Shown here: positions 18,282 through 44,671 of the stretch, piece by piece
Layout: every line of letters starts with the position of its first letter
Position numbering within the stretch: the stretch's first letter is position 1
Source: Bacteroidetes bacterium GWF2_49_14
Lineage (GTDB): Bacteria > Bacteroidota > Bacteroidia > Bacteroidales > UBA12481
DNA length: 46,554 nucleotides
Direction of reading: 5' to 3'
NCBI GenBank assembly: GCA_001769295.1
Contig: MEOR01000104.1
Span: 1 to 46,554 of the forward strand
The notes under the pieces: model-generated
The model's input: only the letters and a program-made list of their open reading frames with translations
The model's database searches: none
What the model was told of the DNA's origin: nothing
Program-made: the position numbers and the translations under genes

Positions 18282-18900
18282 TCCTGACCTCCTCCCTGTT
18301 TATGATTGAAGCTTTTAATTCTTTTGCCTTCGCGGCACCCGGATGAGCCTTGATGATGACTGCCGGGCCCGTCTGGCCGGAGTGGGGCAGGGGAAACACA
18401 TCCCGGTTGGCACCATAGTGGGATTCAAGGTTTTCAAGGGTGTCAAAATCCAGTGCCCTCATCAGGCATGAGGTAACACAGACGGGTTTCTTCCCTTCCT
18501 TGATATAATCTGAGCAGAAATCACATTTCTGCATGATTCCCTTTTGTGGGTTGTACTGAGGCGCTCCGTAAGGACAAGCCCATTCGCAGTACCGGCAGCC
18601 CACACATTTATCAGGGTCAACAAGGACAATGCCATCATTCCCAATATGCATGGCTTTTGTGGGGCAGGCTGCAACGCATGACGGATTCTCGCAGTGATTG
18701 CAGGCCACGGAGAGATTGTAGGCAACGATATCCGGAACCCAGGTACCCTTGCTGTCTTTCTCCCATGCCGATCCGCAAACCTCATAAACACGGCGGAAAC
18801 GAATACCTTCGGTCAGGTCGTTTTTATCCTTGCAGGCCACCTGACAGGTCTTACAACCGGAACAGCAGGAAGAGTCAAAGTAGAATCCGTATTTCGTCAT
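18271..18900 (-). CDS. dmsB: DmsB-like four-[4Fe-4S] electron transfer subunit
   Basis: The 209-residue protein holds four Cys-rich clusters: CCSGCKTCQVACKD (14-27), CNHCENPSCVAACP, CVGCRYCEWACPYGAP, and CDFCSDYIKEGKKPVCVTSC, enough for four [4Fe-4S] centres as in DmsB. It has no export signal of its own and would travel with the Tat-signalled catalytic subunit. It overlaps dmsA by 4 bases (ATGA) and dmsC by 11, so the three are translationally coupled. Confidence 0.93.
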   Translation of the reverse strand: MTKYGFYFDSSCCSGCKTCQVACKDKNDLTEGIRFRRVYEVCGSAWEKDSKGTWVPDIVAYNLSVACNHCENPSCVAACPTKAMHIGNDGIVLVDPDKCVGCRYCEWACPYGAPQYNPQKGIMQKCDFCSDYIKEGKKPVCVTSCLMRALDFDTLENLESHYGANRDVFPLPHSGQTGPAVIIKAHPGAAKAKELKASIINREEVRNDR

Positions 18901-28897: not shown

Positions 28898-30322
28898 TTA
28901 GTTAATTCCGAAACTGATACTGGAAATATACTCATAAATTGCACTGGCAAAACCAATGACAAAGATACCTGCAACGCAGATAAGAAGACTGGCCCGCATC
29001 GCCCAGGGAGTTTTAAAGGTCCCGATCGGTTCATCCGATTTGTCGATCAGCATGGCCTTTACAACACGCAGGTAATAATACAGGGAAACCGTGGCGTTTA
29101 AAACAGCAATCAGAACCAGAATATAATATCCTTTGGCCCCCGCTGCAGTGAACAGGAAGAACTTACCGAAGAATCCGGCTACCGGCGGAATGCCGGCCAG
29201 CGAAAACATGGCAAGCAGCATAATCAGGCTGAGCTTCGGATTGGTTTTGTAGAGGCTGTTGTAATCGGTGATATTCTCTTTTCCGGTTGCCTCCGAGATG
29301 GCAGAAACCACTCCGAAAGCAGCCAGGTTGGTGAACACATATATCAGCATGAAATAGACAACTGTCGTCATACCGAGCTCCCCGCCCTGCATGATACCGA
29401 GGAGAATAAAACCGGCCTGCGCAATAGAGGAGAAAGCAAGGAATCGTTTCATGTTGTTCTGCCTGATGGCAAAAAGGTTACCCACAGTCATGGTTGCAAC
29501 CGCGAGGGTATACAGCAGAGGCTGCCAGATTTCGGTAACCGCCGAAAATACCCTGAACAGGATAATCATAAACGTGAAGGCTGCAGCACCCTTGGAAACG
29601 ACAGACAGGTATGCGGTGATGTTTATCGGAGCACCTTCATAAACATCAGCTGTCCACAGATGGAAGGGAACCAGTGAGATCTTGAAAGCCATCCCTGCAA
29701 CAAAGAATACCAGCCCGAATGTCTGTAGTGGATTGCTGCTGATTTTATCAACGATATCCACAAAGTAGATCGAGCCGGTTGTTCCGTAAATAAAAGACAA
29801 CCCATACAAAAGAATCCCAGAGGAGAGAGCTGAGGTCAGAATCAGTTTAATACCGGCTTCGGCTGACTTTTCATGAAACTTCTCAAAAGCAGCCAGGGCC
29901 GCTATCGGAATGGTTGCCAGCTCAAGCCCGATATACATCATCAGGAAATCACCGGAGGATATCATGAAATTCATCCCGATAAGGGTGGAGATCACAAGAA
30001 TGAAATATTCCGATATTTTCCCGTGGTTTTCCTCTTTGCGCAGCCAGGTCACCGACTGTAGAAAAACAATAAAGACCCCGATATTCAGGACGCTCTTCAT
30101 GAATACCGTCATCGGATTGGTTATAAAACTTCCGCCAAACAGCGTCCCTTCCGGTACAGGAAAGAAATTTGCCACTGTGGCAAGTCCGAAAAGAACTGCG
30201 GCAAGCGTGATAATCCCGTTCTTTTTTTCAGGCTTGGTAAAGATTTCTGCAACCAGCAGGATCATTGCAATCCCAACCAGTATCAGTTCGTTTCTCATGA
30301 GAAAAAATGAGTTGCTCTCCAT
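28898..30322 (-). CDS. nuoN: NADH-quinone oxidoreductase subunit N
   Basis: The 474-residue membrane protein has about 14 helices and the antiporter-like domain (proton-conducting MFS of complex I), with KISLVPFHLWTADVYEGAP (about 213-231), the hallmark of NuoN. It is the last proton channel gene in the nuo cluster, 12 bases behind nuoM. Confidence 0.95.
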   Translation of the reverse strand: MESNSFFLMRNELILVGIAMILLVAEIFTKPEKKNGIITLAAVLFGLATVANFFPVPEGTLFGGSFITNPMTVFMKSVLNIGVFIVFLQSVTWLRKEENHGKISEYFILVISTLIGMNFMISSGDFLMMYIGLELATIPIAALAAFEKFHEKSAEAGIKLILTSALSSGILLYGLSFIYGTTGSIYFVDIVDKISSNPLQTFGLVFFVAGMAFKISLVPFHLWTADVYEGAPINITAYLSVVSKGAAAFTFMIILFRVFSAVTEIWQPLLYTLAVATMTVGNLFAIRQNNMKRFLAFSSIAQAGFILLGIMQGGELGMTTVVYFMLIYVFTNLAAFGVVSAISEATGKENITDYNSLYKTNPKLSLIMLLAMFSLAGIPPVAGFFGKFFLFTAAGAKGYYILVLIAVLNATVSLYYYLRVVKAMLIDKSDEPIGTFKTPWAMRASLLICVAGIFVIGFASAIYEYISSISFGIN

Positions 30323-30334
30323 GGCGTAAGTCTG

Positions 30335-31831
30335 TTATAACATGGCTGTTAAGCGTTCAACAATAGGGACGATTGCATCGGCAAGGGTTCCTGACAGGAA
30401 AGCAGGATAAATCCCGATGATGGCGATCGGAAGGATCAGGACAACCAGGCTGAGTCTTTCATACCAGCGGGCATCCGGGAATTCGAGGTACTCCTTCTCA
30501 CGAAGCGGGCCGAGCAGCAGCTGGCCCACAACGCGCAGGATATAGACTGCAGTGATCACGATAGACATTGTGGCGATAATGGTGATCACCCTGTGGAAAG
30601 TATCGGTGTGTGCAAAGGCCCCAACGAATACGGTCATTTCTGCGATGAAACCGCTAAGTCCCGGAAGACCCAGTGAAGCCAGGCCGGCGATCACGTAGGA
30701 CACCCCGAGGAATGGAATAACAGCCATCAAACCGCCCATTTCCGGTACGTTCCGCGTGTGGGTCCGGCCGTAGATCATGCCGATAAGCGCAAAGAAGAGG
30801 GCCGTCATGAGTCCGTGAGAAATCATCTGAAGAACCGCACCGTTGATGGCGGTTTTATTCATCATCAGGAGTGCGAAAAGAACCAACCCGCAATGGCTCA
30901 CAGAAGAATAGGCATTGATATATTTCAGGTCTTTCTGCCAGATGGCGCCGAAGGCTCCGTAAACAATGCTTATCGTAGTTAGGATCAGGAAAATCCAGGC
31001 CATCTCATTGGCGGCTTCAGGTAGCAGGAACATGGCCACCCTAAGGCAGCCGTATCCTCCGAGCTTCATCAATACACCGGCATGCAGCATCGAAACCGCA
31101 GTTGGTGCCGAGGAGTGACCGTCAGGCGACCAGGTATGCAGGGGAAACAAGGCACCAAGAATTCCGAATCCTACGAAGAGGAACGGGAAGAAGAAGCGCT
31201 GCATAGCCATCGGGAAGTTGATTTTCGACAGTTCCAGGAGGTTGAAGGTTACAGGACCGGCAGCCGAGGAATTGAAATAGAGGCCGAGCAGGCCAACCAC
31301 CAGAAGGGCAGATCCTCCCATCAGCATCAGTGTCAGCTTCATGGCCGAATACTCTTTGGGCCCGCTCCCCCATATTCCAATAAGCAAATACATCGGGATA
31401 ACCGCCAACTCATAGAAAAGGAACATGGTAAACAAATCGAGGGAGATAAAGAACCCGAATACACCGGTAGCCAGCAGAATCAGGGAAATATAGAACTCGC
31501 GCGACAAGTATTGCACCTCCCAGGAGGCGAAGATCCCGGCAAAAACAACAATGGAAGCCAGGCAGATCATCCACACCGCAATGCTGTCAACTCCAACGGT
31601 ATAATGGATATTCAAGGTTTTAAACCAGGTTATATCCGTATAAAACAGAAACTCCCCGGACGCTCCGGCCTTGCGCTCTGCGAAATACATCAGGGTCATC
31701 ACTAAGGCAGCGACAAGCTGCAATGACATGCCAATGGCTGCGGTCATCCGGGCGCCCTTATAATCTTTGACAAACATGATTCCCAGTACCGTGAGGACCG
31801 GGATGATGACGAACAGGTTCAGAATATTCAT
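30335..31831 (-). CDS. nuoM: NADH-quinone oxidoreductase subunit M
   Basis: The 498-residue protein has about 14 membrane helices and the NuoM marks VPMYLLIGIWG (about 145-155), FPLHTWSPDGHSSAPTAVS (about 225-243) with the conserved broken helix, and GLSGFIAEM near 385. It is one of three proton-pumping subunits. It lies 28 bases downstream of nuoL. Confidence 0.95.
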   Translation of the reverse strand: MNILNLFVIIPVLTVLGIMFVKDYKGARMTAAIGMSLQLVAALVMTLMYFAERKAGASGEFLFYTDITWFKTLNIHYTVGVDSIAVWMICLASIVVFAGIFASWEVQYLSREFYISLILLATGVFGFFISLDLFTMFLFYELAVIPMYLLIGIWGSGPKEYSAMKLTLMLMGGSALLVVGLLGLYFNSSAAGPVTFNLLELSKINFPMAMQRFFFPFLFVGFGILGALFPLHTWSPDGHSSAPTAVSMLHAGVLMKLGGYGCLRVAMFLLPEAANEMAWIFLILTTISIVYGAFGAIWQKDLKYINAYSSVSHCGLVLFALLMMNKTAINGAVLQMISHGLMTALFFALIGMIYGRTHTRNVPEMGGLMAVIPFLGVSYVIAGLASLGLPGLSGFIAEMTVFVGAFAHTDTFHRVITIIATMSIVITAVYILRVVGQLLLGPLREKEYLEFPDARWYERLSLVVLILPIAIIGIYPAFLSGTLADAIVPIVERLTAML

Positions 31832-31859
31832 AGTCGGCTTCTTTTCTGTTTACTCTGCA

Positions 31860-33785
31860 TTATCGGACCAGGAAGGCGAAAATCAGCACGAACACCACTG
31901 CCGCCAGGGCGAACACCATGCCATACTGAGGCAGGTACCCGGATTGCAGCCCTTTGATTTTCTTCGCACTGGTCAGGGTGATCCAACCGATTCCGTTCAT
32001 GGTACCGTCAACGATATGACGGTCGAACCATGCGACAGGACGTGATATATAGTTGAAAATGATCTTCTTGGTAATGAAGAGATAGATCTCATCGATATAA
32101 AACTTGTTATAAACCGTCTTGTAAAAGCCACCCAGGGCGATAGAGATCCTCTCAGGAATATGGGTCTCTTTACGGTACATCAGCATTGCAAGTCCAATGC
32201 CGACCAATCCGATCAAAACCGAAGGAATGGCTATGGCAAAATCAATGTGGGATTCGAACGGTCTTCCATCGGCCGTAATAAGCTTTGCGAAAGGCACATA
32301 CCCGGCAAAAATTGATCCGATGGCCAGGATCATGAGCGGAATGGTCATAACCTTTGGTGCTTCATGCGGGGTATGGTGATACTGTGTGTCCTTGCCCCAG
32401 AAGATGCTGAAATAGAGCCTGAACATATAGAAGGCAGTGATTCCGGCAACAAGATATTCAACGGCGAAAAGGAGCTTGTTGTGGTGAAATGCAGCAACCA
32501 GAATTTCATCCTTGCTGAAGAACGCCGACAGGAAAGGTACCCCTGAGATAGTGAGACAGGCAATCAGGAATGTGATATGCGTGATTGGCATATATTTCCG
32601 TAAGCCGCCCATGTCCTGCATGACGTTGCTGTGAACGGCATGGATGATTGCGCCGGCACCGAGGAAAAGCAGAGCCTTGAAGAAAGCGTGCGTAAAAAGG
32701 TGAAACATGGATGCCATGTAACCGACTCCCTCATGACCTTCATAACCGGAAACCCCAAGTGCAAGGATCATGTATCCGATCTGCGACAGGGTAGAGAAGG
32801 CAAGCACCCGTTTTATGTCATACTGGGTGCAGGCGATTATGGCCGCGAAAAGCGAAGTGAAACCGCCGACATATGCGATTACCTCCAGCGCATCCGGGGC
32901 CTGGAAAAAGAATACCGGGAACATCCGGGCTACCAGGAAAACACCGGCAACAACCATGGTTGCGGCATGGATGAGGGCGGAAACAGGAGTTGGACCCTCC
33001 ATGGCATCAGGAAGCCATATGTGAAACGGAAACATGGCCGATTTACCGGCACCACCCATGAAAATCAGTAAGCAGGCCCAGGTAAAGACCGACATCCCCA
33101 TGAAACTCTTGGCGGCGCCGGATTCAAAAATCGAATGGTCGGCCCCGGTAAGAGTGGTAAAGTCAAAAGTCTGGGTGAAAAACGAAAGAAGAAGGATGCC
33201 GATCAAAAATCCCAGGTCGGCAAACCGTGTAACAATAAAAGCCTTTTTGGAGGCGGCAACAGCCGATGGTTTCTGATAATAAAACCCGATGAGGAGGAAA
33301 GAGGAGATTCCAACCAGTTCCCAGAAAACATACATCTGGAAAATATTTGTAGCAACAACCAGCCCTAACATCGAAAAACTGAATAAGGAAAGAAATGAGT
33401 AAAATCTTTCAAATCCCTTTTCACCCTTCATATAGCCAAGGCTGTAAATATGAACCATAAAGGATACCGACGAAACCACAACCAGCATCATAACCGAAAT
33501 CGGATCGAGCATGATCCCCATCCGGATTGTCAGCTTATCGGTAAACTGCAGCCAATCCATTGACATGGCTATGATTTTGGGGAACTCACCATCGACCATA
33601 CCCCCAACGAAGAAGTACTGCCAGGCTGTGTACCAGGATAACAGGAAAACGATTCCGAGTCCGATGGTCCCGACGAGGCCTGATACGATCGGCTTGAACT
33701 TCATTCCCAGCAGGCCGTTAAACAGGAATGCCGCAATGGGTATCAGAAGGATTAATATTGTATAGGAGTAGTTCATATCAGCCAA
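31860..33785 (-). CDS. nuoL: NADH-quinone oxidoreductase subunit L
   Basis: The 641-residue protein has about 16 helices: the antiporter-like core with FPFHIWLPDAMEGPTPVSAL (about 251-270) and a C-terminal long lateral helix with a further anchoring helix (residues about 520-640), as in NuoL. The segment after about 505 (FESHIDFAIAIPSVLIG) leads to the horizontal helix HL that couples the pumps. It follows nuoK by 9 bases. Confidence 0.95.
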   Translation of the reverse strand: MADMNYSYTILILLIPIAAFLFNGLLGMKFKPIVSGLVGTIGLGIVFLLSWYTAWQYFFVGGMVDGEFPKIIAMSMDWLQFTDKLTIRMGIMLDPISVMMLVVVSSVSFMVHIYSLGYMKGEKGFERFYSFLSLFSFSMLGLVVATNIFQMYVFWELVGISSFLLIGFYYQKPSAVAASKKAFIVTRFADLGFLIGILLLSFFTQTFDFTTLTGADHSIFESGAAKSFMGMSVFTWACLLIFMGGAGKSAMFPFHIWLPDAMEGPTPVSALIHAATMVVAGVFLVARMFPVFFFQAPDALEVIAYVGGFTSLFAAIIACTQYDIKRVLAFSTLSQIGYMILALGVSGYEGHEGVGYMASMFHLFTHAFFKALLFLGAGAIIHAVHSNVMQDMGGLRKYMPITHITFLIACLTISGVPFLSAFFSKDEILVAAFHHNKLLFAVEYLVAGITAFYMFRLYFSIFWGKDTQYHHTPHEAPKVMTIPLMILAIGSIFAGYVPFAKLITADGRPFESHIDFAIAIPSVLIGLVGIGLAMLMYRKETHIPERISIALGGFYKTVYNKFYIDEIYLFITKKIIFNYISRPVAWFDRHIVDGTMNGIGWITLTSAKKIKGLQSGYLPQYGMVFALAAVVFVLIFAFLVR

Positions 33786-33794
33786 AAGATTGGA

Positions 33795-34112
33795 TTAATA
33801 CTTCATTTCGTTCACCTGTTCCACATTGATCGAGTTTAATCGCCTGTAAATATTGATAATCAGGGCAATTGCAACGGAGGCTTCCGCAGCGGCAATACCT
33901 ACCACGAAAAGTGCGAAGAACTGGCCCTGCAGCTGGTCGGGGTATAGATACTTATTGAAAACGACCAGGTTGATATTTACCGCGTTAAGGATCAATTCGA
34001 TCGACATAAGGATGGTGATCATGTTTCTCCGGATAATAAAGCCGCAGATTCCGGCGAAGAACATGAATGCGCTGACTATCAGCACGTGGGTCATTGGAAT
34101 TCCTTCTATCAT
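33795..34112 (-). CDS. nuoK: NADH-quinone oxidoreductase subunit K
   Basis: From the ATG at 34112 the protein has 105 residues (MIEGIPMTHVLIV...), matching the normal NuoK length of about 100. The frame remains open further upstream (to 34175), but this would run into the nuoJ gene and add a non-homologous stretch. Three helices, with the conserved Glu in SIELILNAVN (about 38-47) and AAAEASVAIALIINIYRR (about 75-92) in the proton path. 37 bases downstream of nuoJ. Confidence 0.92.
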   Translation of the reverse strand: MIEGIPMTHVLIVSAFMFFAGICGFIIRRNMITILMSIELILNAVNINLVVFNKYLYPDQLQGQFFALFVVGIAAAEASVAIALIINIYRRLNSINVEQVNEMKY

Positions 34113-34149
34113 GGCTTGGCGATTAGCGATTTGAATTAATGCGTAAAAA

Positions 34150-34656
34150 TTATTTACCTTTTTTAGCAACCACAATGGCTCCGATCATGGCTGCGAGCAG
34201 CAGAACGCTGATGACCTCAAAGGGAAGGGCATAGCCGTTTTTTCCAGTGCCCAGCAACTGGGTTCCGATGGCCTGCATATCCACCTTTATGGCTGCATTC
34301 TCTGTTTCCTTGAAAGCAAATTGCAAAATGGCAATGGTCGACAGGGCAAATCCCGATACTCCCACAATCAGTCCCATTACCAGGCGCATGGCTTCAGGCT
34401 TGGCAAATTTGTGGCTGATGTGGCTGGTCAGCAGAATGGAGAAAATGATCAGGACAACAATACCCCCGGCATACAGGACCAGCTGAACCCCTGCCATGAA
34501 TTGGTAATCCACCATAAAATAGAAACCGGCCGTGGCAACGAGAACGCAAAGCAGGTAAAAGGCTGCCCGCAGAATTCTCCGGCTGGTTATCGTGAGCACT
34601 GAGAAGATCACGATTACTGCCGATAATATGTAAAACATCAATACGTTGAGTGCCAT
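34150..34656 (-). CDS. nuoJ: NADH-quinone oxidoreductase subunit J
   Basis: The 168-residue membrane protein has five helices, with ALNVLMFYILSAVIVIFSVL (residues 2-21) and the central GVQLVLYAGGIVVLIIF (about 55-71), where NuoJ has the pi-bulge helix involved in coupling. It is in the standard place between nuoI and nuoK. Confidence 0.93.
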   Translation of the reverse strand: MALNVLMFYILSAVIVIFSVLTITSRRILRAAFYLLCVLVATAGFYFMVDYQFMAGVQLVLYAGGIVVLIIFSILLTSHISHKFAKPEAMRLVMGLIVGVSGFALSTIAILQFAFKETENAAIKVDMQAIGTQLLGTGKNGYALPFEVISVLLLAAMIGAIVVAKKGK

Positions 34657-34663
34657 ATCGGAA

Positions 34664-35215
34664 TTAATTTGCAGGGTTAGGTACTTCTTCGGTTACAGGC
34701 GTGGGTGCAGGTGCTGGCGCTGGCTTTGGAACTTTCGGCTCTTTCTTGATTTTGGAACCGGGCTGGTTCAAAACCTTGGTAAGTTTCTGCCGGTCGAATA
34801 CGGCATGTTCAAATTCCTGGGAAAAAGCCAGTGCATTGCTGGGACAGCTCTTTACACAGAGACCGCAGAATGTGCACATGGATAAATGATAAATATGCTT
34901 GTCGATGATTCTTTCTGATTTACCATCCTCATTTACCGCTGAATCGGTGATGATCTCAATCGACCCGTTGGGGCAGTTTAACTGGCAGATGCCACAACCA
35001 TTGCATTTATGGGTGTTGTCCGTATCATGAACAAGAATAACCTCCCCCTTGAACCGGTCAAACATCTCAAGAGTCTTGCGGTTTTCAGGATACTGCTGGG
35101 TAACGATCTGCTTCGGATGGACGAAGTAGTATCCGGTTACCATCAAACCCTTCCACAAGGATCTGATTGCTTTAAAGATATCGCTGAAATATTGTGCTAC
35201 TGAGTTCATAGTCAT
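34664..35215 (-). CDS. nuoI: NADH-quinone oxidoreductase subunit I (two [4Fe-4S]) with Pro-rich tail
   Basis: The 183-residue protein carries the N6a/N6b cluster motifs CNGCGICQLNCP (about 71-82) and CTFCGLCVKSCP (about 112-123). In complexes without NuoEFG this subunit and NuoB take electrons from an external donor, often ferredoxin. The last 25 residues are very rich in Pro and Ala (PKPAPAPAPTPV), not part of ordinary NuoI. The start codon overlaps the nuoH stop (TAATG). Confidence 0.95.
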   Translation of the reverse strand: MTMNSVAQYFSDIFKAIRSLWKGLMVTGYYFVHPKQIVTQQYPENRKTLEMFDRFKGEVILVHDTDNTHKCNGCGICQLNCPNGSIEIITDSAVNEDGKSERIIDKHIYHLSMCTFCGLCVKSCPSNALAFSQEFEHAVFDRQKLTKVLNQPGSKIKKEPKVPKPAPAPAPTPVTEEVPNPAN

Positions 35216-36306
35216 TATTTAAAATACCATCCCATCAGGACGAGGAAGGCGATTAATAGAGTATTCACCAGATTGATCGGAAGGAGATATTTCCATTCCA
35301 GGTTCAGGAGTTGATCGATCCTGAGCCGTGGGAATGTCCATTTAAACCACATAATCAAGTAGATAACAAAAATTGTTTTGCCGAAATACCAGAATATCGG
35401 GGGTATGAAATCCATGATTCTGTTGAATGCTTCAAGGTTTCCGATATGCAGCGGCATCCAGCCTCCCAGGAAAACGGTGGCCGCCAGTGAGGCAACGATG
35501 AACATATTCATGAATTCACTGAGGAAGAAGAACGCAAACTTTATCCCTGAATATTCGGTATGGAAGCCGGCAGTCAGCTCGGATTCTGCTTCTGCAAGGT
35601 CAAAGGGTCCACGGTTGATCTCGGCGGTGCTTGCAATCAGGAACATGAAGAAGGCGACAATCGCCGGAAGATGCCCCTTGAAGATCCACCATCCGTTTGC
35701 CTGACTTTCAACGATGGTGGAGAGCTGCATGGATCCGCTGAAAATAACGACTGAAACCAGCGCTAGTCCTACAGACAGCTCATAGCTCACAACCTGCGCG
35801 CCACTTCGCATGGCACCGATCAGGGAATACTTGCTGTTACTGGACCATCCTGCGATCAAAATACCGACTACACCGATCGAAGAGACTGCCATCATATAAA
35901 ATACTCCGATATTAAAGTCCACAGCGTGAAGGCCCTTGGCAAACGGAATAGCGGCTATAGCCATAAAGGATGCGATGATCACGATAAAGGGTGCAACATT
36001 GTATAGAAGCTTGTCAGCTTTCTTAATGGTGATCAGTTCCTTCATCAACAGCTTGATCAGGTCGGCAATGGTCTGAAACAGTCCCCACTTGCCGACACGG
36101 TTGGGACCGACCCTGTTCTGCATGAAGGCGCAGACCTTTCGCTCGGCGTAAACCAGGTAGAGTCCGACTATTGCGTAGAAAATGAGAAACACGAGTCCCA
36201 CAATGGTCAACTCAGTAATAAAAGCCCACGTTGGTGACATGTTAGCCTTAAGAAACTCGTCAACGGCTTTTGTTGTGGTTGAAAAATCGTAGATATTAAA
36301 TGGCAT
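35215..36306 (-). CDS. nuoH: NADH-quinone oxidoreductase subunit H
   Basis: I prefer the ATG at 36306 (363 residues, beginning [15 protein letters not shown]), which lies near an AGGA and matches NuoH starts. A GTG at 36330 overlapping the nuoD stop would add 8 residues. The protein has about eight helices, with [20 protein letters not shown] (about 55-74), the quinone-site loop, and [20 protein letters not shown] (about 229-248), both diagnostic of NuoH. It forms the quinone chamber with NuoB and NuoD. Confidence 0.93.
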
Positions 36307-36329
36307 TTGTCCTGTTATATGCGTTAACA

Positions 36330-37460
36330 CTATCGGTCAATGTCAGGAATTACAAGGTCAAGGGAACCGCTGATGGCAATCAGGTCGGCGATCTTGAATC
36401 CTGCGGCTAATCGGTTCATCACAAACAGATTAGAAAAGTTAGGAGTGCGAAAATGCATCCTGTAGGGGTTTTTCTCTCCCGTGCTGATAATATAAACACC
36501 AAGCTCGCCCCTTGCGGTTTCCACCCGCTGGTGGTATTCACCTTCCGGCAGCCTGATGATGGGTTTCATTTTTGCAGTGAAGTCGCCTTCAGGAATATTG
36601 TCTATCAGTTGTTCAATGATTCTCATGGACTCCCACATCTCATCCATCCTGACCTTATACCGGGCCCATGTGTCACCCTCATTGTACAGGATCTCTTTGA
36701 AATTCACCTTGTCATAGGCGCTGTAGGGGAAACGCTTCCGGATATCGCAGGCGAATCCGGAACCGCGTCCTGAAGGGCCCGTCAGTCCGTATCCGACAGC
36801 TTCCTCTTTCGACAGGATTCCGATATTTTTGGTGCGCTGCTCGAAGATGATATTGCCCGTAAGGAGCTCATCATATTCAGGAAGTTTTTTCCGGAAGTAG
36901 GTGATGAAATCCTTGGTTCTTTTTTGAAAATTAGGATGAATGTCGTTCATCAGCCCACCCGGACAGATATAGCTGTGCAGGAGCCGTGATCCGAATGATT
37001 CTTCAAAAATGTCCAGAATCTTTTCCCGGTCACGCAGGCCATAGAAAAAGCAGGTAAGTCCGCCAAGGTCCATCCCGAATGCTGCCCACCAGAGCTGATG
37101 GGAGGCCAGGCGCTGCAGTTCTGACAGAATGGTCCGGATGTATTTAACACGATCCGGAACTTCAATTCCAAGGCCCTTCTCAACGGCAAGGGAAACAGCC
37201 TCATTGTTCATGTGCGCTGAAAGGTAATCCATCCGGTCGGTAAGATGAATGATCTGCGGGTAGGTCAGCCTTTCACACATTTTCTCAATTCCGCGATGGA
37301 TATAACCGCAATGCGGGATCACATATTCCAGCGTTTCGCCCTTCAGGGAAACCACAAAACGGAGAACACCATGTGTTGACGGGTGCTGCGGTCCAATATT
37401 TATGATATAATCGCCGTCTTCACGGGCGGTCAGAATATCTTGCAATTCAACTTCCTGCAT
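36330..37460 (-). CDS. nuoD: NADH-quinone oxidoreductase subunit D
   Basis: The 376-residue protein is the 49-kDa subunit that lines the quinone site, with [15 protein letters not shown] (about 21-35), [13 protein letters not shown] (about 51-63) and the C-terminal [11 protein letters not shown]. NuoC and NuoD are separate genes here; in Escherichia coli and many Bacteroidota they are fused. It lies 3 bases after nuoC. Confidence 0.95.
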
Positions 37461-37463
37461 GGC

Positions 37464-37919
37464 TTATCGTTCGATGAAGTTAATATCGTCCTTGTAGTCT
37501 TTTCTCAAAGGAAATCCCCAGCCGTCCTCGAGGAAAAGCCTTCGCAAATCGGGATGGTTGCTGAAAGAGATGCCCAAAAGGTCATAAATCTCACGTTCCT
37601 GAAAATTCGCGGTAATCCAAATATCACTTATAGTATCCAGCGAAGGATTATCATGGTCGGCCACTTCAGTCCGTACAATCAGGGAATACCCGAGAATGGT
37701 AGAATCCAGGTAGGCGATTACGGTAAAATAAGTCTGCCAGTCAACTCCGTAAAGGTTATGCAGATAGTTAAACTGCAGCCTGGGATCCGATGCCAGCTTT
37801 CCGGCCAGTTCATGCCAGGTATTGCTTGCTGCCTTAACCTCCAAAATCTCTTTACTGCTGTTTATCTCCAGGCCGGGAACCAGTTCCGCCAGGATTTGGG
37901 CTAATTGTTCTTTTTCCAT
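37464..37919 (-). CDS. nuoC: NADH-quinone oxidoreductase subunit C
   Basis: The 151-residue protein is the 30-kDa subunit of the peripheral arm, with FQEREIYDLLGISFSNHPDL (about 106-125) and RRLFLEDGWGFPLRKDY (about 126-142), the signature of NuoC. It is a separate gene, 8 bases downstream of nuoB and 3 bases upstream of nuoD. Confidence 0.94.
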   Translation of the reverse strand: MEKEQLAQILAELVPGLEINSSKEILEVKAASNTWHELAGKLASDPRLQFNYLHNLYGVDWQTYFTVIAYLDSTILGYSLIVRTEVADHDNPSLDTISDIWITANFQEREIYDLLGISFSNHPDLRRLFLEDGWGFPLRKDYKDDINFIER

Positions 37920-37927
37920 GGCCTTGG

Positions 37928-38488
37928 TTAAATAAAGTTTTCCATCGGGTCGCGCGGATCCTTGATGGTATCCGTCTTCATTTTTCGCTGCAGCTGCATT
38001 ACCCCATAGAGTAGAGCCTCCGGGCGGGGCGGACAGCCTGGAACGTAAACATCAACCGGGATCACGTGGTCAACACCTCGTACCACAGAGTAGGTATTGT
38101 AGTAAAAAGGTCCGCCCGAACAGGCGCAGGCTCCCATGGCTATCACGAACTTTGGGTCTGCCATCTGGTCATAAAGCCTTTTTAAAACAGGGGCCATTTT
38201 ATGGACGATGGTTCCTGCCACGACAATCACATCGGCCTGTCGGGGTGAGGCACGGTATACTTCGATACCGAACCGGGAGAAATCATGCCTCGCAGCACCG
38301 GCAGCCATCATCTCAATGCCGCAGCAGCTGGTGGCAAAAGTTAAGGGCCAGACAGAATTTGACCGGCCCCAGTTAATAATATCGTCGATGGTAGTCAGAA
38401 GGATATTTCCGCCGGACTGCTTGAAGATATCCAGGGTTTCATTATCCCCGAAATCTTCATTCTTCATGTTTTTAATCTTTACGCCCAT
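37928..38488 (-). CDS. nuoB: NADH-quinone oxidoreductase subunit B ([4Fe-4S] N2)
   Basis: The start at 38488 is chosen because AGGAG lies 7 bases before this ATG; the longer frame to 38509 has no such site. The 186-residue protein has TSCCGIEMM (about 53-61, the tandem Cys ligands of cluster N2), [10 protein letters not shown] and [11 protein letters not shown], which complete the N2 ligands. It hands electrons to quinone. It overlaps the nuoA stop by 10 bases. Confidence 0.95.
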
Positions 38489-38832
38489 TTCAAAGCTCCT
38501 TTTTTCCATGCATACAGCAACCCCAAACCCAGGACAATGAAGAAGATCACGATCTCAATAAAAGCCCTGAGCCCCGTCTCTCTCATGACTACCGCCCATG
38601 GAAAAACAAAAACCGTTTCCACTGCAAAAATGAGGTAGATGATGGCAAACAGGTAATACCCGACGTTAAACTGGATCCAGGCGTTTCCTTCGGCCGGGAT
38701 GCCGCATTCGTAGGGCTCGAACTTTACTGGCGACTTGCTGATCCGCGGCGCAACAAAGTGAGAGAACAGAATTGCCCCGCCCACAAGTACAACGCCTACG
38801 ATAAAGAATAATACAAGTGATTCGCTGGTCAT
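38479..38832 (-). CDS. nuoA: NADH-quinone oxidoreductase subunit A
   Basis: The 117-residue protein has three helices and [19 protein letters not shown] (about 37-55), the NuoA signature with conserved Glu and Cys. It is the first gene of the eleven-gene nuo operon, with a -7 promoter element just upstream. Confidence 0.94.
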
Positions 38833-38860: not shown

Positions 38861-38989
38861 GAACTTTCACTATATATAAATGTAGATACCCCAATATTTA
38901 AGGATTGTCATTTATCAGGATTATTCTGATGTAGATCACGAATAAGGCGATATATATCAATGCCGGTTGCCGGATATTTCGCCAGAACT

Positions 38990-39110
38990 GTCATTCCGGC
39001 GTATGCCGGAATCTCCCACCTCGGAGCGTTGTCATCCCCGCGAATGCGGGGATCGCGTCCCTTAAAGCGCGCTAAGCAGTGGAACCGGTCCCCGCTTTCG
39101 CGGGGATGAC
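38990..39110. repeat. Palindromic repeat element with GTCAT/ATGAC ends
   Basis: The element holds three stem-loops with 4-base loops: ATTCCGGC/GCCGGAAT (38993-39012), ATCCCCGC/GCGGGGAT (39034-39053) and TCCCCGC/GCGGGGA (39089-39106). Its outer ends are GTCAT (38990-38994) and ATGAC (39106-39110). It matches a widespread class of short intergenic repeats found in many bacteria. It occupies part of the 339-base gap between nuoA and the radical SAM gene; the rest of the gap holds the nuo promoter and a heptamer run. Apparent open frames through it are not genes. Confidence 0.8.
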
Positions 39111-39132
39111 AAGTACTCCGAGGCCAAACCAG

Positions 39133-39153
39133 CAACCGGCAACTGGCAACCAG
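39133..39153. repeat. Heptanucleotide tandem run, three copies
   Basis: CAACCGG, CAACTGG, CAACCAG follow each other, next to a degenerate fourth copy (CGGCAACCG). They lie just downstream of the radical SAM gene stop. Confidence 0.6.
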
Positions 39154-39171
39154 TCTTAACCGGCAACCGTT

Positions 39172-40299
39172 CTACCACCTCCCCGGGATCGTTGCCTGAC
39201 ACTTGGGACACCGGCCATTGACGATCAGGTTTTGTTCAATCTCGAAACCATTGCGCTTTACCAGGAGTACCTTGCATGCGTGACAATAGGTGTCTTCACC
39301 TCCGATGCCCGGAATATTTCCTATGTAGACATAATTTAGCCCGGCCTTGATTGCGATCTCCTTAGCTTTTGTAAGAGTTTGGAGCGGGGTGGGGGGGAGG
39401 CGGGTAAGCTTATGCTGGGGATGAAACCGGCTGAAATGGAGGGGGTTACCTGAGAAACCTTCTTTAGCCAGCCAGTCACACATCCTGGTGATGTGGTCAA
39501 AGTTATCGGTCCAACCCGGAATGATGAGATTGGTGATCTCAACCCAGACTCCCTTATCCCGGAAAGTCTTAAGAGTTTCTAGTATCGGCTTGAGGTTTCC
39601 GGCTGTCAGCTTCAGGTGCGTCTCCGGGTCAAAAGTCTTCAGATCAATATTTGCAGCATCAATTACCCTGCATAACTCCAGGAGAGGTTCCTCATTGATA
39701 TATCCATTGGAGACCATGATGTTCTTCACACCCCTGGCTTTGGCCGCGGTTGCCGTGTCCCGCATGTATTCAAAAAACGTGATGGGTTCGGAATACGTAT
39801 AGGCAATGGATTTGCAGTTCTCATTGATAGCCTGATTTACAACATTCTCCGGGCTAGCCATGTAATTCCTTGTTTCTGTTGGACTCACCTGGCTGATTTC
39901 CCAGTTCTGACAATTGAGGCAGGCAAAATTGCATCCCGCTGTTGCCAGACTGAACGAAAGACTGGCCGGATAAAAATGGAGAAGTGGCTTTTTCTCTACC
40001 GGATCAATGTGGACCGCGCAGGGATTCCCATAGGCCATGGTATAGAGTTTTCCATCCCTCGCAATCCGGTTATGACAATCGCTTAACTCCCCTTCTTTCA
40101 GGGTGCACTCATTGGGACAGATAAGGCATTTTACACCCCGTGGTGTGACAATATAATGACTTGCCTCACGCTCTCCCGGTCTCTGAATATTCTGGTCGTC
40201 CATAATGAATGATGCTTTATTTCCGAATCCTGTGGCACCGCAAAGAAAGGTACCAAATCCTGCTGTAAATGACCTTTTAATGAAATCCCTCTTGTTCAT
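39172..40299 (-). CDS. AmmeMemoRadiSam system radical SAM enzyme with Tat-like leader
   Basis: From the ATG at 40299 the protein has 375 residues (a TTG at 40317 is possible). The N-terminus KRDFIKRSFTAGFGTFL resembles a Tat leader, with Lys-Arg in place of the usual Arg-Arg. The radical SAM cluster is CNFACLNC (Cys123, Cys127, Cys130). A Cys group precedes it (CLICPNECTL at 58-67 and Cys75) and a zinc-ribbon-like CxxC pair ends the protein (CHACK, CPKC). This is the family named for its co-occurrence with AMMECR1 and MEMO; the reaction is unknown. Stop follows a gap with repeats; the membrane-protein gene is upstream. Confidence 0.88.
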   Translation of the reverse strand: MNKRDFIKRSFTAGFGTFLCGATGFGNKASFIMDDQNIQRPGEREASHYIVTPRGVKCLICPNECTLKEGELSDCHNRIARDGKLYTMAYGNPCAVHIDPVEKKPLLHFYPASLSFSLATAGCNFACLNCQNWEISQVSPTETRNYMASPENVVNQAINENCKSIAYTYSEPITFFEYMRDTATAAKARGVKNIMVSNGYINEEPLLELCRVIDAANIDLKTFDPETHLKLTAGNLKPILETLKTFRDKGVWVEITNLIIPGWTDNFDHITRMCDWLAKEGFSGNPLHFSRFHPQHKLTRLPPTPLQTLTKAKEIAIKAGLNYVYIGNIPGIGGEDTYCHACKVLLVKRNGFEIEQNLIVNGRCPKCQATIPGRW

Positions 40300-40317
40300 G
40301 GTTGACTCGCCGGACAA

Positions 40318-42687
40318 CTATCTTTTTACCAATATCAGCCCTAAAGATACGATTCCGAAAAGTGAAATAACGGCAATAGCCGGTATCATTCCCATAAAAG
40401 GCAGTATGGCCAGTGGGAACAGGATTGCTCCGATGGCAGATCCAATGAGGTCGGAAGCATAGAGCTTCCCGGATCTTCTGGCATCCTTCTGGCTGGTACT
40501 GAGCGTATTGTATATCCGGCCTATAAACCAGGCTGATAGGAAAAGCAGGATCATCAGGAACAGGATTTTCAGGATGGATCCGGACCCGCTTCCGGTCAAT
40601 GATTTAGCCACCACCCCAAGCACGCAGGCCACAATTGAAAAGCCGGCAGGCAGGATCCATGGACGGATATTGACCCGGAACCCTCCTTCTGGGGAAGCCG
40701 ACTGACTGCCCGCGGCAAGACCGATCATGAAAACCGCCAGGAAAAGTCCGGTCATAAGGTAAAGGGAGCCCGATATGCCCTGAAGCAGCAACAGCACGAT
40801 TAAAGTGAGCCCGGATGAGCCTGCCCCCATCAGGAACATGATGGAATCCTCCCTTCTGCCGGCGAAAAGTGATACTAAGAGGATTACTGAAACCAGAATG
40901 ATTCCCGACCAGAGAATACGGTCAGGATATTGTCCCAGCCACCATCTGATCTGGGCAAAGAATGCCGAGGGCTTAAGGTTGCTGTTGGCTTTGGTTAGAT
41001 AGTCAATTAGTTGGTCAGCTTTCTTGGATTGTTCCTGAAACAGGTTTGCGTCGAAGTACCCGGGACTGAGGTAGGTTGCCCTGATGCCGCGGATTTCCAT
41101 CTGATTCAGAATATCGGTTTTCAGATCGGAGTCTGAAGCCAGCAGGAAGGTGTTTTCACCGGCGAAAACCTGAACATCAGCAAAAGATTTTTTTGCAGCA
41201 GAAGCAACCGGATTCAATGTATTGATGGCCTCCCCTGAAATGTAATTGGCGATTCCTGGTAGCATAACCGACACTACCCCGTCTGGCGACAGGCTTCTCT
41301 TTGCGAGACTGAAGAAGTCTTCCGAATAAAACCGGTTCAGGCTCAGGTTTTGGGGACCGGGCAAGAGGACCAAAATAGCCTGGTAGAATCCTTCCTTCCG
41401 TTTTAACCAGACCATGGGTTCCTTTTGAACGATCTGGATCCTGCCGTCAGCCGAAGGAAGCAGTGCGAGCCCCTTGGCCATGTTTCTCAATTGGGCGACA
41501 GGTTCAACAAAATCAACACATTCCACTTGATATTTCAGCAATTCAGCCTCTATCCCGGTTATCAGGCCGCCGATGAGCAGGATGTTCCTGGTCGAATCGG
41601 GCTGTACAAGGGTGAAGTGGGCTGCCTGCTCATTGATCAGAGTGTTGGCCGACGAAGCTGCCAGGATCCCGTTTTCATAGATGTTCGACTGGTCTGCCAT
41701 CCGGGTTACGGTAATTCTTCCGGCAGCTCCGGAGCGGGTGGCAATGATTTCTTCATTCGGGTGAGCCAGTTTTTCAAAATATTCTGCTGCCGGGACCGTA
41801 AACCAGCCCATAAGAATCAGCAGGGTTACAAGAACGCCGCCGGTTGCCGCTCCCAGACTTTCCCGCATGTAGGCTTTCGCCGGTGTAAAGTCGTCTTTTT
41901 CAAAATGTTGAAGAATGTAAGTGAAAGCGAATCCGTTAAGAAAACAAAACGGGGTCAGGATCAGTAACAGGAATCCGGCAAAATCCGATGGACCTACCTC
42001 TATTCCCGGGGCAAAAAAAAGATATTTTAAATAGAACGCGAGTGGCACAAGAACCACCGGTAGTATCAGAATAAACAATAAGAGAAGGCCTGGTCTGCCG
42101 CGGCTACCCTCCGTTTGTGATTGAGTTTCCGGAGCCCGGCTTCCTGTTAAGGCACCGGCACCCGTTAGAACCAGCCAGATAAAGAATATCAGCGAGATCA
42201 TCAGTTCGTTACCGTTAAACAAGCCGAGCATTTCGCGGATCACCAGGGTCTGGAAAACAATTCCAATAAACCCTATCGCAAACGGGAGAAATTTGGTGAG
42301 GTGTTGTGAGGTGTTGTGAGGTGTTGTCTCCCTGTCCCCGTTGGGGCGCCCTGCGGGTGCCCGTTTTCCCCTTACTCGTCCCTTTGGCAGATAGTACCCC
42401 CAATGCCACAAAAAATGAAACACCCCGATCCCCGACATGGCAATTCCAAAGTTTACATGCCATTTCAGTACTTTTTCCGTCCATGGGACCTCTATTTTGT
42501 AGTTGATCTGGACGGCCATAAGGACCCCGAGAACAGCGGTTGTGATAAAGGCTGTTAGCAGTAGGTAATTCCAGATTTTCCGGTGTGTTGCGCGGCTGAT
42601 TATTTGCAGGGTATTGAAAAGGAGGCTGATCCCATAAAACATCAGGAGTATTACAGCGATGGGGATCAGGAGGTAAGGGGCGGTCAT
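40318..42687 (-). CDS. Membrane protein: cytochrome-b-like region fused to spermidine-synthase-like domain
   Basis: The 789-residue protein has an N-terminal four-helix region (about 1-105) with His residues in FHFLWHWGYYLP, suggestive of heme b binding. A low-complexity linker follows (about 103-130), then membrane helices (about 130-330), a Rossmann domain like spermidine synthases (about 335-560; YENGILAASSANTLINE, NILLIGGLITGI) and a last helix block (about 590-785). The spermidine-synthase active-site segment, usually LPDPS or DxxDP, reads LLPGPQ, so the catalytic aspartate is lost. Similar fused membrane proteins exist in respiratory bacteria without known function. It is 18 bases before the radical SAM ATG and 11 after the MEMO-AMMECR1 stop. 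Confidence 0.75.
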   Translation of the reverse strand: MTAPYLLIPIAVILLMFYGISLLFNTLQIISRATHRKIWNYLLLTAFITTAVLGVLMAVQINYKIEVPWTEKVLKWHVNFGIAMSGIGVFHFLWHWGYYLPKGRVRGKRAPAGRPNGDRETTPHNTSQHLTKFLPFAIGFIGIVFQTLVIREMLGLFNGNELMISLIFFIWLVLTGAGALTGSRAPETQSQTEGSRGRPGLLLLFILILPVVLVPLAFYLKYLFFAPGIEVGPSDFAGFLLLILTPFCFLNGFAFTYILQHFEKDDFTPAKAYMRESLGAATGGVLVTLLILMGWFTVPAAEYFEKLAHPNEEIIATRSGAAGRITVTRMADQSNIYENGILAASSANTLINEQAAHFTLVQPDSTRNILLIGGLITGIEAELLKYQVECVDFVEPVAQLRNMAKGLALLPSADGRIQIVQKEPMVWLKRKEGFYQAILVLLPGPQNLSLNRFYSEDFFSLAKRSLSPDGVVSVMLPGIANYISGEAINTLNPVASAAKKSFADVQVFAGENTFLLASDSDLKTDILNQMEIRGIRATYLSPGYFDANLFQEQSKKADQLIDYLTKANSNLKPSAFFAQIRWWLGQYPDRILWSGIILVSVILLVSLFAGRREDSIMFLMGAGSSGLTLIVLLLLQGISGSLYLMTGLFLAVFMIGLAAGSQSASPEGGFRVNIRPWILPAGFSIVACVLGVVAKSLTGSGSGSILKILFLMILLFLSAWFIGRIYNTLSTSQKDARRSGKLYASDLIGSAIGAILFPLAILPFMGMIPAIAVISLFGIVSLGLILVKR
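42298..42327. repeat. Three perfect copies of a 10-bp repeat inside a coding region
   Basis: GAGGTGTTGT is repeated three times with no mismatch. It encodes part of the linker between the cytochrome-b-like and the spermidine-synthase-like parts of the membrane protein (TTPHNTSQHLT region). Gain or loss of a single copy shifts the reading frame. Confidence 0.92.
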
Positions 42688-42698
42688 GTCTGACGTGA

Positions 42699-44204
42699 CT
42701 ATTCTTCCTCAAAGATAATTGCCTCATAGATAAAGACATCGGCATCTTTCCAGCCGCTCCAGCCTATCCCTGCCTTGTCGCGTGCACAATGGCCCAGGAA
42801 CTCTTCAAGAGTCCATCCGGTTTCGGTGGCAACCTGGGGCAGGAAGGTGCCGCCCTGGAATCCTTTTTTTATATAGATTCCATGTGTTCCCAGCTTAATT
42901 TCCGAGATATCCCGGATTTTCTTCATTGGGGTCAGCACCGATATCTCAATATGAATCTCCTTCAATTCCTTCGACTGAACGGGCAGAAACCGGCTGTCCC
43001 GGGTGGACGAGGCAATCGCCATTTCCTGTACTACCTTGAAAAGCGGAGACGACGGTTCAAAGGATCCGATGCAACCCCTCAATTGTCCATCTGATTTCAG
43101 AGTTACAAATGCACCCGCAGGAGTTTTAAGCGACTCACTGAAACCGGATGTAGTAATTTCGGGTATGGTACGATTCCTGACATAAGATTCGAGGGTGGTT
43201 CGTGCGATTTGAACGAGCTCTTTTTTATCGGTATCGCTGAGTTCGAATTGCCCTGATTTTTTCTCGGAAATGCAGATGGAATGGTAACCCACAACCGATG
43301 CCTTGTCACCATATGGCCTGATGTCGCCCGAATTTTTGTATTGGATCCGGCTGAATTTCAACGAGGGATTGTTTTCAGTGAGGTTGAGCAGAATCAGGGC
43401 CGACGGCCAGGCACACATGCTGGTTGCCAGATCCGGAATCCGTAGTTTGTCATTAGCTTCCAGAACCTTGAGAAATCCGCTGATGGAATTGGTGCAGAAG
43501 GCTTCAGCAGTGGCGGCATCTACTTTAAGGGCATTCTCGTAGGACGGATAATGAGAAAAATCTGCACTGATAATAAACAGGTTATCCGCAGTGAACCAGG
43601 GTTTTAACACTTCGGCAATCCCTTTGCATATGGATGGAAGCTGGGTGCCGACCACAATCGGGACTATGGGTATGGGCTTTGTCAGGCTGATCTGCAAAAA
43701 AGGTAACTGTACCTCAATGCTGTGTTCCTGAATATGTGCTGAGGGGTCGTCGGTAAAGAATTCCTTGTTAGCTGCCAGTTTTGCCGACACCTCTTTATCT
43801 ACTTCCATTTTACCCAGAGGGGTGAGATAATCTCCCCGGGTATAGACCGATGCTTTACCCAGGCTCATCCGGTGCGAGGAAGCTATGATGAAGATTCTTT
43901 TATAAGGGTGATCCGGATTGATCTGGTTGTAACCTGATGCCGCCACACCGCCGGAAAAAACATACCCGGCATGCGGCACCACCAAGGCTCTCACGACTCC
44001 GCTGGTCTGGTCAGGCTTGCCCTCTTTCAGAAAACCGGAAACCAGGGTCCGGAGTTGGGTTGCCTCCGCCGGATAAAAGGAACCGGCAACCGCCGGCTTC
44101 CGGTCTTGCTGTGATTTTTGCATGACGGCTTGGGAATTAATTGTTTGCGGAAACATGAAAATCGAAATGAGCCCCCCTGTAACGATAACGGGAATGCGGG
44201 TCAT
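42699..44204 (-). CDS. AmmeMemoRadiSam MEMO-AMMECR1 fusion with signal-peptide-like N-terminus
   Basis: The 501-residue protein begins with a signal-peptide-like segment (about 5-26, ending INSQA). The MEMO domain (about 36-310) has the metal-binding residues of human MEMO1 in place: His78 (PHAGY), His111 (SSHRM) and Cys264 (TSMCAW), plus EHSIEVQLPFL. The AMMECR1 domain (about 335-500) has the signature LRGCIG (375-380) and a terminal GWKDADVFIYE. Human MEMO1 binds copper; AMMECR1 has no known reaction. Fusion of the two is a known arrangement. Its ATG overlaps the stop of the transposase remnant upstream (ATGA). Confidence 0.9.
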   Translation of the reverse strand: MTRIPVIVTGGLISIFMFPQTINSQAVMQKSQQDRKPAVAGSFYPAEATQLRTLVSGFLKEGKPDQTSGVVRALVVPHAGYVFSGGVAASGYNQINPDHPYKRIFIIASSHRMSLGKASVYTRGDYLTPLGKMEVDKEVSAKLAANKEFFTDDPSAHIQEHSIEVQLPFLQISLTKPIPIVPIVVGTQLPSICKGIAEVLKPWFTADNLFIISADFSHYPSYENALKVDAATAEAFCTNSISGFLKVLEANDKLRIPDLATSMCAWPSALILLNLTENNPSLKFSRIQYKNSGDIRPYGDKASVVGYHSICISEKKSGQFELSDTDKKELVQIARTTLESYVRNRTIPEITTSGFSESLKTPAGAFVTLKSDGQLRGCIGSFEPSSPLFKVVQEMAIASSTRDSRFLPVQSKELKEIHIEISVLTPMKKIRDISEIKLGTHGIYIKKGFQGGTFLPQVATETGWTLEEFLGHCARDKAGIGWSGWKDADVFIYEAIIFEEE

Positions 44205-44671
44205 CCGATTATTTTTTTCCAGAAATTTTTCTTCCGTCGATCGGAATAGGTGCCGTAAGTCCTGGAATCCGGATTGCCGAATTGCTTGAGGGTAATATCA
44301 TGCAATACATCCATGCCCTCTTTGCCAACCCGCTGGCGAAAGCGTGAAAGTTCGCTGTGGGAAAACGGTTTTTCTGTCTGGAAGTGAACCTCACCGCAGA
44401 AATATTGCCAATAGGGATTTTCAGGCCATATTTTGAGCACCTTTTCATCACTCAGGTTGAAGCGCTCCTTAAGAAGCATCATCCCGATAATCTTTCGGGG
44501 AGGGATGGAGGGACGGCCCTTGGGGGAATAAAAAGGCATGAATTTGTCCTCAATGGCTTCCCAGTCAATCTGATCCGCTCCGATAACGAGCTCGTGTTTT
44601 TTGCTTATAAACCGTGCGACAGGAACTTCAAAAATCTCGAGTTGCCGCTTGTTCCTAGATCTGCCCAGCAT
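44201..44671 (-). pseudogene. IS5-family transposase remnant (N-terminal part only)
   Basis: The 156-residue frame matches the N-terminal part of IS5-type transposases: RPSIPPRKIIGMMLLKERFN, NLSDEKV, NPYWQYFCGEVHFQ, and SHSELSRFRQRVGKEGM. Intact members are two to three times longer, with the DDE catalytic domain after this point. Here the frame ends after KKNFWKKIIG, so the catalytic residues are missing. I found no terminal inverted repeats around it. The stop is fused to the start of the MEMO-AMMECR1 gene (ATGA overlap). Confidence 0.8.

Follow-up and report, generated by a model that had tools for sequence, protein, structure and literature searches.

A putative extracytoplasmic AmmeMemoRadiSam system with a Tat-like leader on its radical SAM enzyme in Bacteroidetes bacterium GWF2_49_14

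Results

Genes and features of the locus

The window, i.e., the whole analysed stretch of 46,554 nucleotides of contig MEOR01000104.1 from Bacteroidetes bacterium GWF2_49_14, contains on its minus strand three genes that are arranged in the order MEMO-AMMECR1 fusion, membrane protein, radical SAM enzyme (Table 1). The radical SAM protein matches TIGR04337 with 357.5 bits (cut-off 220), while the two parts of the fusion protein match TIGR04336 (MEMO; 229.2 bits, cut-off 26) and TIGR04335 (AMMECR1; 167.6 bits, cut-off 99). In the profile search the fusion matched PF01875 and PF01871, and the sole domain match of the middle protein was Spermine_synth. The start codon of the radical SAM gene is the ATG at 40299, which gives MNKRDFIKRSFTAGFGTFLCG; an alternative, longer start is the TTG at 40317 that abuts the preceding stop. 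The radical SAM Cys triad (C123, C127, and C130) and the MEMO ligands H78, H111, and C264 are intact, as was claimed in a sequence-only reading of this DNA, and so is the AMMECR1 motif LRGCIG. Among 27 aligned radical SAM homologues, all of which match TIGR04337, the triad, the motifs around CxxxCxxC, and eight further cysteines are invariant.

Table 1. Features of the three-gene module and their positions in the window
Feature	Position	Strand	Basis
Radical SAM enzyme, AmmeMemoRadiSam family, TIGR04337, 375 aa	39172..40299	minus	ORF and profile match
Tat-like leader of radical SAM enzyme, residues 1-32, MNKRDFIKRSFTAGFGTFLCGATGFGNKASFI; followed by in-frame Met33, conserved in the genus	40204..40299	minus	
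Tat-type motif KRDFIK, radical SAM residues 3-8; Arg4 and Phe6 invariant in 27 homologues	40276..40293	minus	
Radical SAM N-terminal Cys group C58-x2-C61-x3-C65 ... C75, invariant	40075..40128	minus	alignment
Radical SAM CxxxCxxC motif (C123, C127, C130)	39910..39933	minus	
Radical SAM C-terminal CxxC...CxxC (C339, C342, C364, C367), zinc-ribbon- or auxiliary-cluster-like	39199..39285	minus	
Membrane protein, 789 aa: 3 TM b-like part and 12 TM MFS-fold part with inserted spermidine-synthase-fold domain	40318..42687	minus	
Optional cytochrome-b-like (DUF4405-like) 3-TM part of membrane protein, residues 1-99	42391..42687	minus	
Spermidine-synthase-fold domain of membrane protein, residues 297-590, predicted outside the cytoplasm	40918..41799	minus	
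MEMO-AMMECR1 fusion, 501 aa	42699..44204	minus	
Sec-type signal peptide of MEMO-AMMECR1, residues 1-26, MTRIPVIVTGGLISIFMFPQTINSQA	44127..44204	minus	
MEMO domain, ligands His78, His111, Cys264	43275..44099	minus	
AMMECR1 domain with LRGCIG motif (Cys378)	42711..43214	minus	

The start of the MEMO-AMMECR1 gene overlaps, by ATGA, a 156-aa open reading frame at 44201-44671 (minus strand) that corresponds to an IS5 transposase reduced to its N-terminal DUF772 part. Since eight genus-level loci share this IS5-like fragment at the same position (L063-L067, L100, L101, and the window), a fresh IS insertion upstream of MEMO was ruled out; perhaps the frame is a domesticated fragment with the role of a regulator. 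On the other side of the module, the intergenic stretch 38960-39160 contains repeated palindrome-like units (TCATCCCCGCGAAAGCGGGGA and its variants) and is followed by a complex I (nuo-like) gene set at 28898-38832 (minus strand), which likewise follows the radical SAM gene in other loci of the genus (L063, L064, and L065).

Leader of the radical SAM enzyme

The Tat-like leader noticed earlier near position 40299 belongs to a confirmed open reading frame, and a survey of homologues, which could have turned up close relatives without leaders, bore it out. About 30 homologues from the same order, compared together with their gene neighbourhoods, carry radical SAM leaders, and those that adjoin the membrane protein start with [S/N/T]-(K/R)-R-x-F-(L/I)-K. 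The consensus, S-[K/R]-R-x-F-[L/I]-K, is followed by a weakly hydrophobic stretch; the MEMO signals of the same operons are strongly hydrophobic. R4 and F6 are the only invariant leader residues (27 of 27 aligned homologues), and the remaining leader varies. Over 75 leaders from different phyla the consensus is [S/N/T]-[K/R]-R-[E/D]-F-[L/I]-K, with the Arg kept in 74 and the Phe in 66 of them. The invariance of R4 and F6 amid variation, together with the retention of the Arg across phyla, argues that the leader is not a product of chance.

The motif of the window protein, N-K-R-D-F-I-K, is the KR variant of the [S/T]-R-R-x-F-L-K type. Leaders found outside Bacteroidota comprise 26 of RR and three of KR type, as opposed to 39 of KR and six of RR type inside this phylum, the division being made by locus number, with a few rows on the wrong side (e.g., Ignavibacteriota locus L133). 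According to a 2019 review, TtrB is the only known native Tat cargo with KR, and a single Arg-to-Lys change merely slows Tat export in most bacteria (PMC6708511). The conservation of its residues makes the radical SAM leader a probable Tat-type signal, the main caveat being KR instead of RR in this clade.

MEMO-AMMECR1 export signal and metal ligands

The signal-peptide-like segment attributed earlier to the N-terminus of MEMO-AMMECR1 appears to be of Sec type. Homologous fusions bear Sec or lipoprotein signals: the partners of leadered radical SAM proteins from the same order have strongly hydrophobic Sec-type signals, and a lipobox-like Cys is present in several of the MEMO-AMMECR1 signals (L072, L073, L078, L085, and L086). 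The ligands H78, H111, and C264 correspond to H49, H81, and C244 of human MEMO1 (PMC11081632). Since human MEMO1 uses these ligands to bind Fe(II) or Cu(I) (PMC11081632, PMC11918410), the previous assignment of copper to MEMO was too specific, and by analogy the metal of the window protein may be either of the two.

Predicted structure of the membrane protein

The predicted model of the membrane protein (pLDDT 86, pTM 0.88) comprises three N-terminal helices, five helices, a globular domain (residues 297-590), and seven more helices, which makes 12 predicted helices besides the b-like part. In this model the helices adopt the MFS fold (Z score of 25.1 over 335 residues to NarK and 24.1 to PepTSt), and the globular domain adopts the fold of spermidine synthase (Foldseek 7.5e-10 to 1uir; Z score of 25.9, 3.2 A over 271 residues). 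Lys and Arg residues are concentrated opposite the inserted domain (13.8 vs. 2.1 on the side of the domain), with the same bias in all 46 sequences, and hence the spermidine-synthase-fold domain is predicted to lie outside the cytoplasm.

Three positions of this domain were compared, which we take to be those of the ribose-binding acid (395), the adenine-binding Asp (423), and the catalytic Asp of the D-x-x-D-P motif (441). The first two are mostly kept across relatives, while the catalytic Asp is mostly replaced: position 441 is occupied by Leu in the window protein, and among 46 relatives by Asn in 18 and by Asp in only seven. Such a combination suggests that the domain of the relatives binds an adenosyl compound but does not transfer aminopropyl groups. 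In the window protein itself the nucleoside-binding positions are partly lost (Glu at 423, Gln at 436, and Leu at 441), which makes its binding of SAM doubtful.

The description of this protein as a large membrane protein with a cytochrome-b-like region holds in part. The b-like part is present, although it makes up only the first ~100 residues of the protein and matches DUF4405 with 21.3 bits, i.e., below the Pfam gathering threshold of 26.7; the main MFS and spermidine-synthase fold had gone unrecognised. The b-like part occurs in 19 of 46 membrane proteins, in which His35, His77, His91, and His95 are mostly conserved; in one further case (L125) a small gene of its own encodes it. Because it is missing from most of the 46 proteins, cytochrome b was rejected as a core partner in general. 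At L062:1480-2196, a homologue of the b-like segment is encoded as a separate protein, which has a Cys-rich motif, CPFGEKVNCLGECGRF...CD, at its N-terminus.

Distribution and co-occurrence

A scan of 84,980 species genomes revealed the module, whole or partial, in Bacteroidota (including about 20 genera of the order of the window organism), Ignavibacteriota, Desulfobacterota, KSB1, Latescibacterota, Planctomycetota, Acidobacteriota, Myxococcota, Omnitrophota, and MAGs labelled archaeal. Canonical, leaderless family members, mostly of 335-345 aa, are encoded in many of these genomes as well, so that leadered and cytoplasmic forms are present together; the MEMO proteins beside these leaderless canonical copies have no leader either. 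The membrane protein is encoded nearby in the case of 51 of 85 leadered and two of 53 leaderless radical SAM copies (p 2.7e-12), and the MEMO signal peptide is present at 44 of 45 leadered vs. nine of 20 leaderless loci (p 1.9e-6); the rows are related by descent, so these p values are indicative only, and phylogenetically independent pairs are too few to confirm the correlations. In a tree built from 137 radical SAM cores, nine changes of the Tat label are needed, compared to 45 with shuffled labels; thus, the leader type follows the tree. Clustering of neighbours revealed no further gene conserved across phyla except those of DUF362 and DsbD/FMN types. One genome contains three tandem leadered radical SAM copies adjoining a membrane-protein homologue (L098:7949-11766).

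Possible link to the Tat translocase

TatC is encoded in the genome of the window organism (216 bits) and in those of 85 of 99 relatives. Nearly all genomes with leadered copies have TatC, but the background is also high (85 of 99), and therefore the presence of TatC was rejected as a discriminating test for the leader and is merely consistent with Tat export. The window organism's own genome yields at least 12 matches above the Tat-signal cut-off, and most of those that were read contain RR; the radical SAM leader of the window is absent from the 20 TIGR01409 matches of this genome. One of the matches above the cut-off lies elsewhere in the window, at 21204-21263 (minus strand): it is the true twin-arginine leader, MAGQNRREFIRNSAVVGG, of the 792-aa product of the open reading frame 18897-21275, and another Tat-like start, of weak score, is located at 23010 (plus strand).

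The strongest single item for the Tat link is a locus from a MAG labelled Altiarchaeota (L150:4938-7125), where the gene order is tatA-like, tatC, tatA-like, radical SAM, and lipoprotein-type MEMO-AMMECR1. The two tatA-like frames and tatC form a chain of head-to-tail overlaps that stops three bases before the radical SAM gene; TatC was assigned there by Pfam and the TatA-like proteins by reading of their sequences.

Redox proteins encoded next to the radical SAM gene

In several other phyla the neighbours or extensions of the radical SAM enzyme are of redox type. A DsbD_2 domain is fused to the enzyme at L173:5221-7047, a DsbD_2-FMN_bind-Fer4_5 protein is encoded just upstream of it in L152, L156, and L158, and an FMN_bind-Fer4_5 protein in L168. 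DUF362 proteins, some with Tat-like leaders, precede it in L151, L164, and L187, and open reading frames similar to them in L193 and L197. These neighbours support the notion of a working redox enzyme that would be supplied from the membrane. The earlier proposal that the system is fed by a b-type region is plausible in the window but does not apply generally, as this region is absent from most homologues and DsbD/FMN/4Fe-4S proteins occur elsewhere.

Discussion

Radical SAM enzymes are regarded as cytoplasmic, since they need SAM and a strong, low-potential reductant, both of which are available in the cytoplasm. The leaders described here and the transporter-like membrane partner indicate that radical SAM chemistry outside the cytoplasm is possible. 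The view that all three products of the module are directed to the envelope has gained support from the conservation of the radical SAM leader, its co-occurrence with the MEMO signal and the membrane protein, the predicted topology of the latter, and the tatA-tatC-tatA-radical SAM operon. We propose that the module is probably an extracytoplasmic AmmeMemoRadiSam system, consisting of an exported radical SAM enzyme, MEMO-AMMECR1, and a partner of the MFS fold.

According to this proposal, the radical SAM enzyme would fold and acquire its Fe-S cluster(s) in the cytoplasm and then be exported by Tat to the outer face of the inner membrane; in the case of Fe-S Tat cargo, a block in Fe-S insertion is known to block export (PMC6708511). 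MEMO-AMMECR1 would be exported by Sec, with a lipoprotein anchor in many relatives, and the radical SAM enzyme would work with it and with the MFS-fold protein, whose spermidine-synthase-fold domain is predicted outside and which may serve as a docking and adenosyl-handling partner. Electrons for SAM cleavage would cross the membrane through the b-type domain here and through DsbD/FMN/4Fe-4S proteins elsewhere. The membrane protein might bind and/or move SAM or the spent adenosyl product, as suggested by the retention, in most relatives, of the acids with which spermidine synthase binds the nucleoside, but not of its catalytic Asp. Finally, the target modified by the radical enzyme might be MEMO-AMMECR1 itself or a substrate in the envelope, in analogy to pyruvate formate-lyase activase, the closest solved relative of its core, which modifies a partner protein. 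Taken jointly, these three steps are a speculative scheme that we consider doubtful as a whole. More broadly, it is possible, although we lean slightly towards doubt, that we deal with a widespread envelope system in which the loaded radical SAM enzyme passes through Tat, a dedicated MFS transporter, whose spermidine-synthase-like binding domain faces outward, supplies SAM or removes its cleavage products, and electrons are delivered across the membrane. The export signals, topology, operon conservation, and redox partners elsewhere are the parts of the proposal that have support in sequences, while the supply of SAM, the direction of transport, and the substrate are inferred.

Alternatively, the radical SAM enzyme could stay in the cytoplasm, its N-terminus being a segment that docks it to the inner face of the membrane near the membrane protein, so that only MEMO-AMMECR1 would be outside and the products would cross the MFS-fold protein. 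The cytoplasmic location of SAM and reductant, the replacement of the Tat motif by a plain N-terminal TM anchor in L152, L156, L158, L169, and L177, and the KR of the window leader, missed by TIGR01409, are in line with such docking. However, docking does not need the fixed R-x-F, whose Arg and Phe do not vary among the 27 homologues and are largely retained across phyla, and it is at odds with RR in most other phyla and with tatA-tatC-tatA in L150; moreover, in several TM-anchored lineages the positive charges that precede the TM segments suggest that the enzyme domain is outside as well. We therefore consider docking unlikely. More unlikely still is that the exported protein no longer performs SAM chemistry and acts together with MEMO in a redox chain of the envelope, as an Fe-S electron carrier or a metal protein. 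Although no SAM pool is known outside the cytoplasm, and the neighbours in other phyla are electron-transfer proteins, the invariant CxxxCxxC triad and its surroundings, the match of all 27 homologues to TIGR04337, and the spermidine-synthase-type fold of the partner, with adenosyl-binding acids kept in most copies, argue for an enzyme that uses SAM. Very improbable is an artefact in which translation starts at Met33 and the enzyme is an ordinary cytoplasmic one: Met33 is conserved in six genus-level sequences, the gene of L067 begins there, and the amino acids of the leader change faster than those of the core, but the frame is held over 33 codons without indels in the genus with KR-x-F invariant, other genera keep the motif without Met33, a fixed motif combined with fast change is usual for signal peptides, and the L067 contig has only 3.3 kb and lacks the membrane gene as well.

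If the proposed extracytoplasmic location is right, a conserved, exported radical SAM lineage with its own membrane partner would break the cytoplasm-only rule, and the presence of SAM or its analogue outside the cytoplasm would be implied. The MEMO/AMMECR1 pair, both members of which have human homologues linked to disease, would gain a defined place and a genetically testable set of partners. With these leaders, Tat signals of KR type would also turn out to form a large family in nature; up to 2019, a single native cargo of this type had been known (PMC6708511).

Comparison with known systems

Memo-AMMECR1 systems with radical SAM were already described by Burroughs in 2019 (cited in PMC7159879). 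The AmmeMemoRadiSam family is known, while the exported form and its membrane partner are apparently undescribed: our literature search, which is no proof of absence, found neither of them reported, nor a paper joining a radical SAM enzyme, a Tat signal, and the periplasm in this sense. The module shares with the AmmeMemoRadiSam system (TIGR04335, TIGR04336, and TIGR04337) all three domains, each above its cut-off, as well as the metal ligands and Cys motifs. Unlike the canonical copies in the same genomes, it has export leaders on both products, MEMO fused to AMMECR1, and a partner of MFS and spermidine-synthase fold.

By profile, the closest solved relative of the radical SAM core is pyruvate formate-lyase activating enzyme (3c8f, 4e-16), a cytoplasmic protein of 245 aa; the match is confined to the core and includes neither the leader nor the Cys groups at the two termini. 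The MEMO domain is homologous to human MEMO1 (7kq8, 1e-23), which has the same His/His/Cys ligand set but is intracellular, with neither AMMECR1 fusion nor export signal. A spermidine-synthase fold joined to a membrane domain, as here, is also found in the group of membrane-fused spermidine synthases (PRK03612 type) and Thermus aminopropyltransferase (1uir, 3anx). The window membrane protein scores 80 bits against PRK03612 (cut-off 472), and, in contrast to synthases of this type, the protein of the module has its catalytic Asp mostly replaced and its domain predicted outside, and is linked to radical SAM and MEMO. Transmembrane electron donors of NosR/DsbD type are represented in other phyla by DsbD_2, FMN_bind, and Fer4_5 domains fused or adjacent to the radical SAM enzyme; in the window module, from which these domains are absent, the DUF4405-like b-type segment may take their place.
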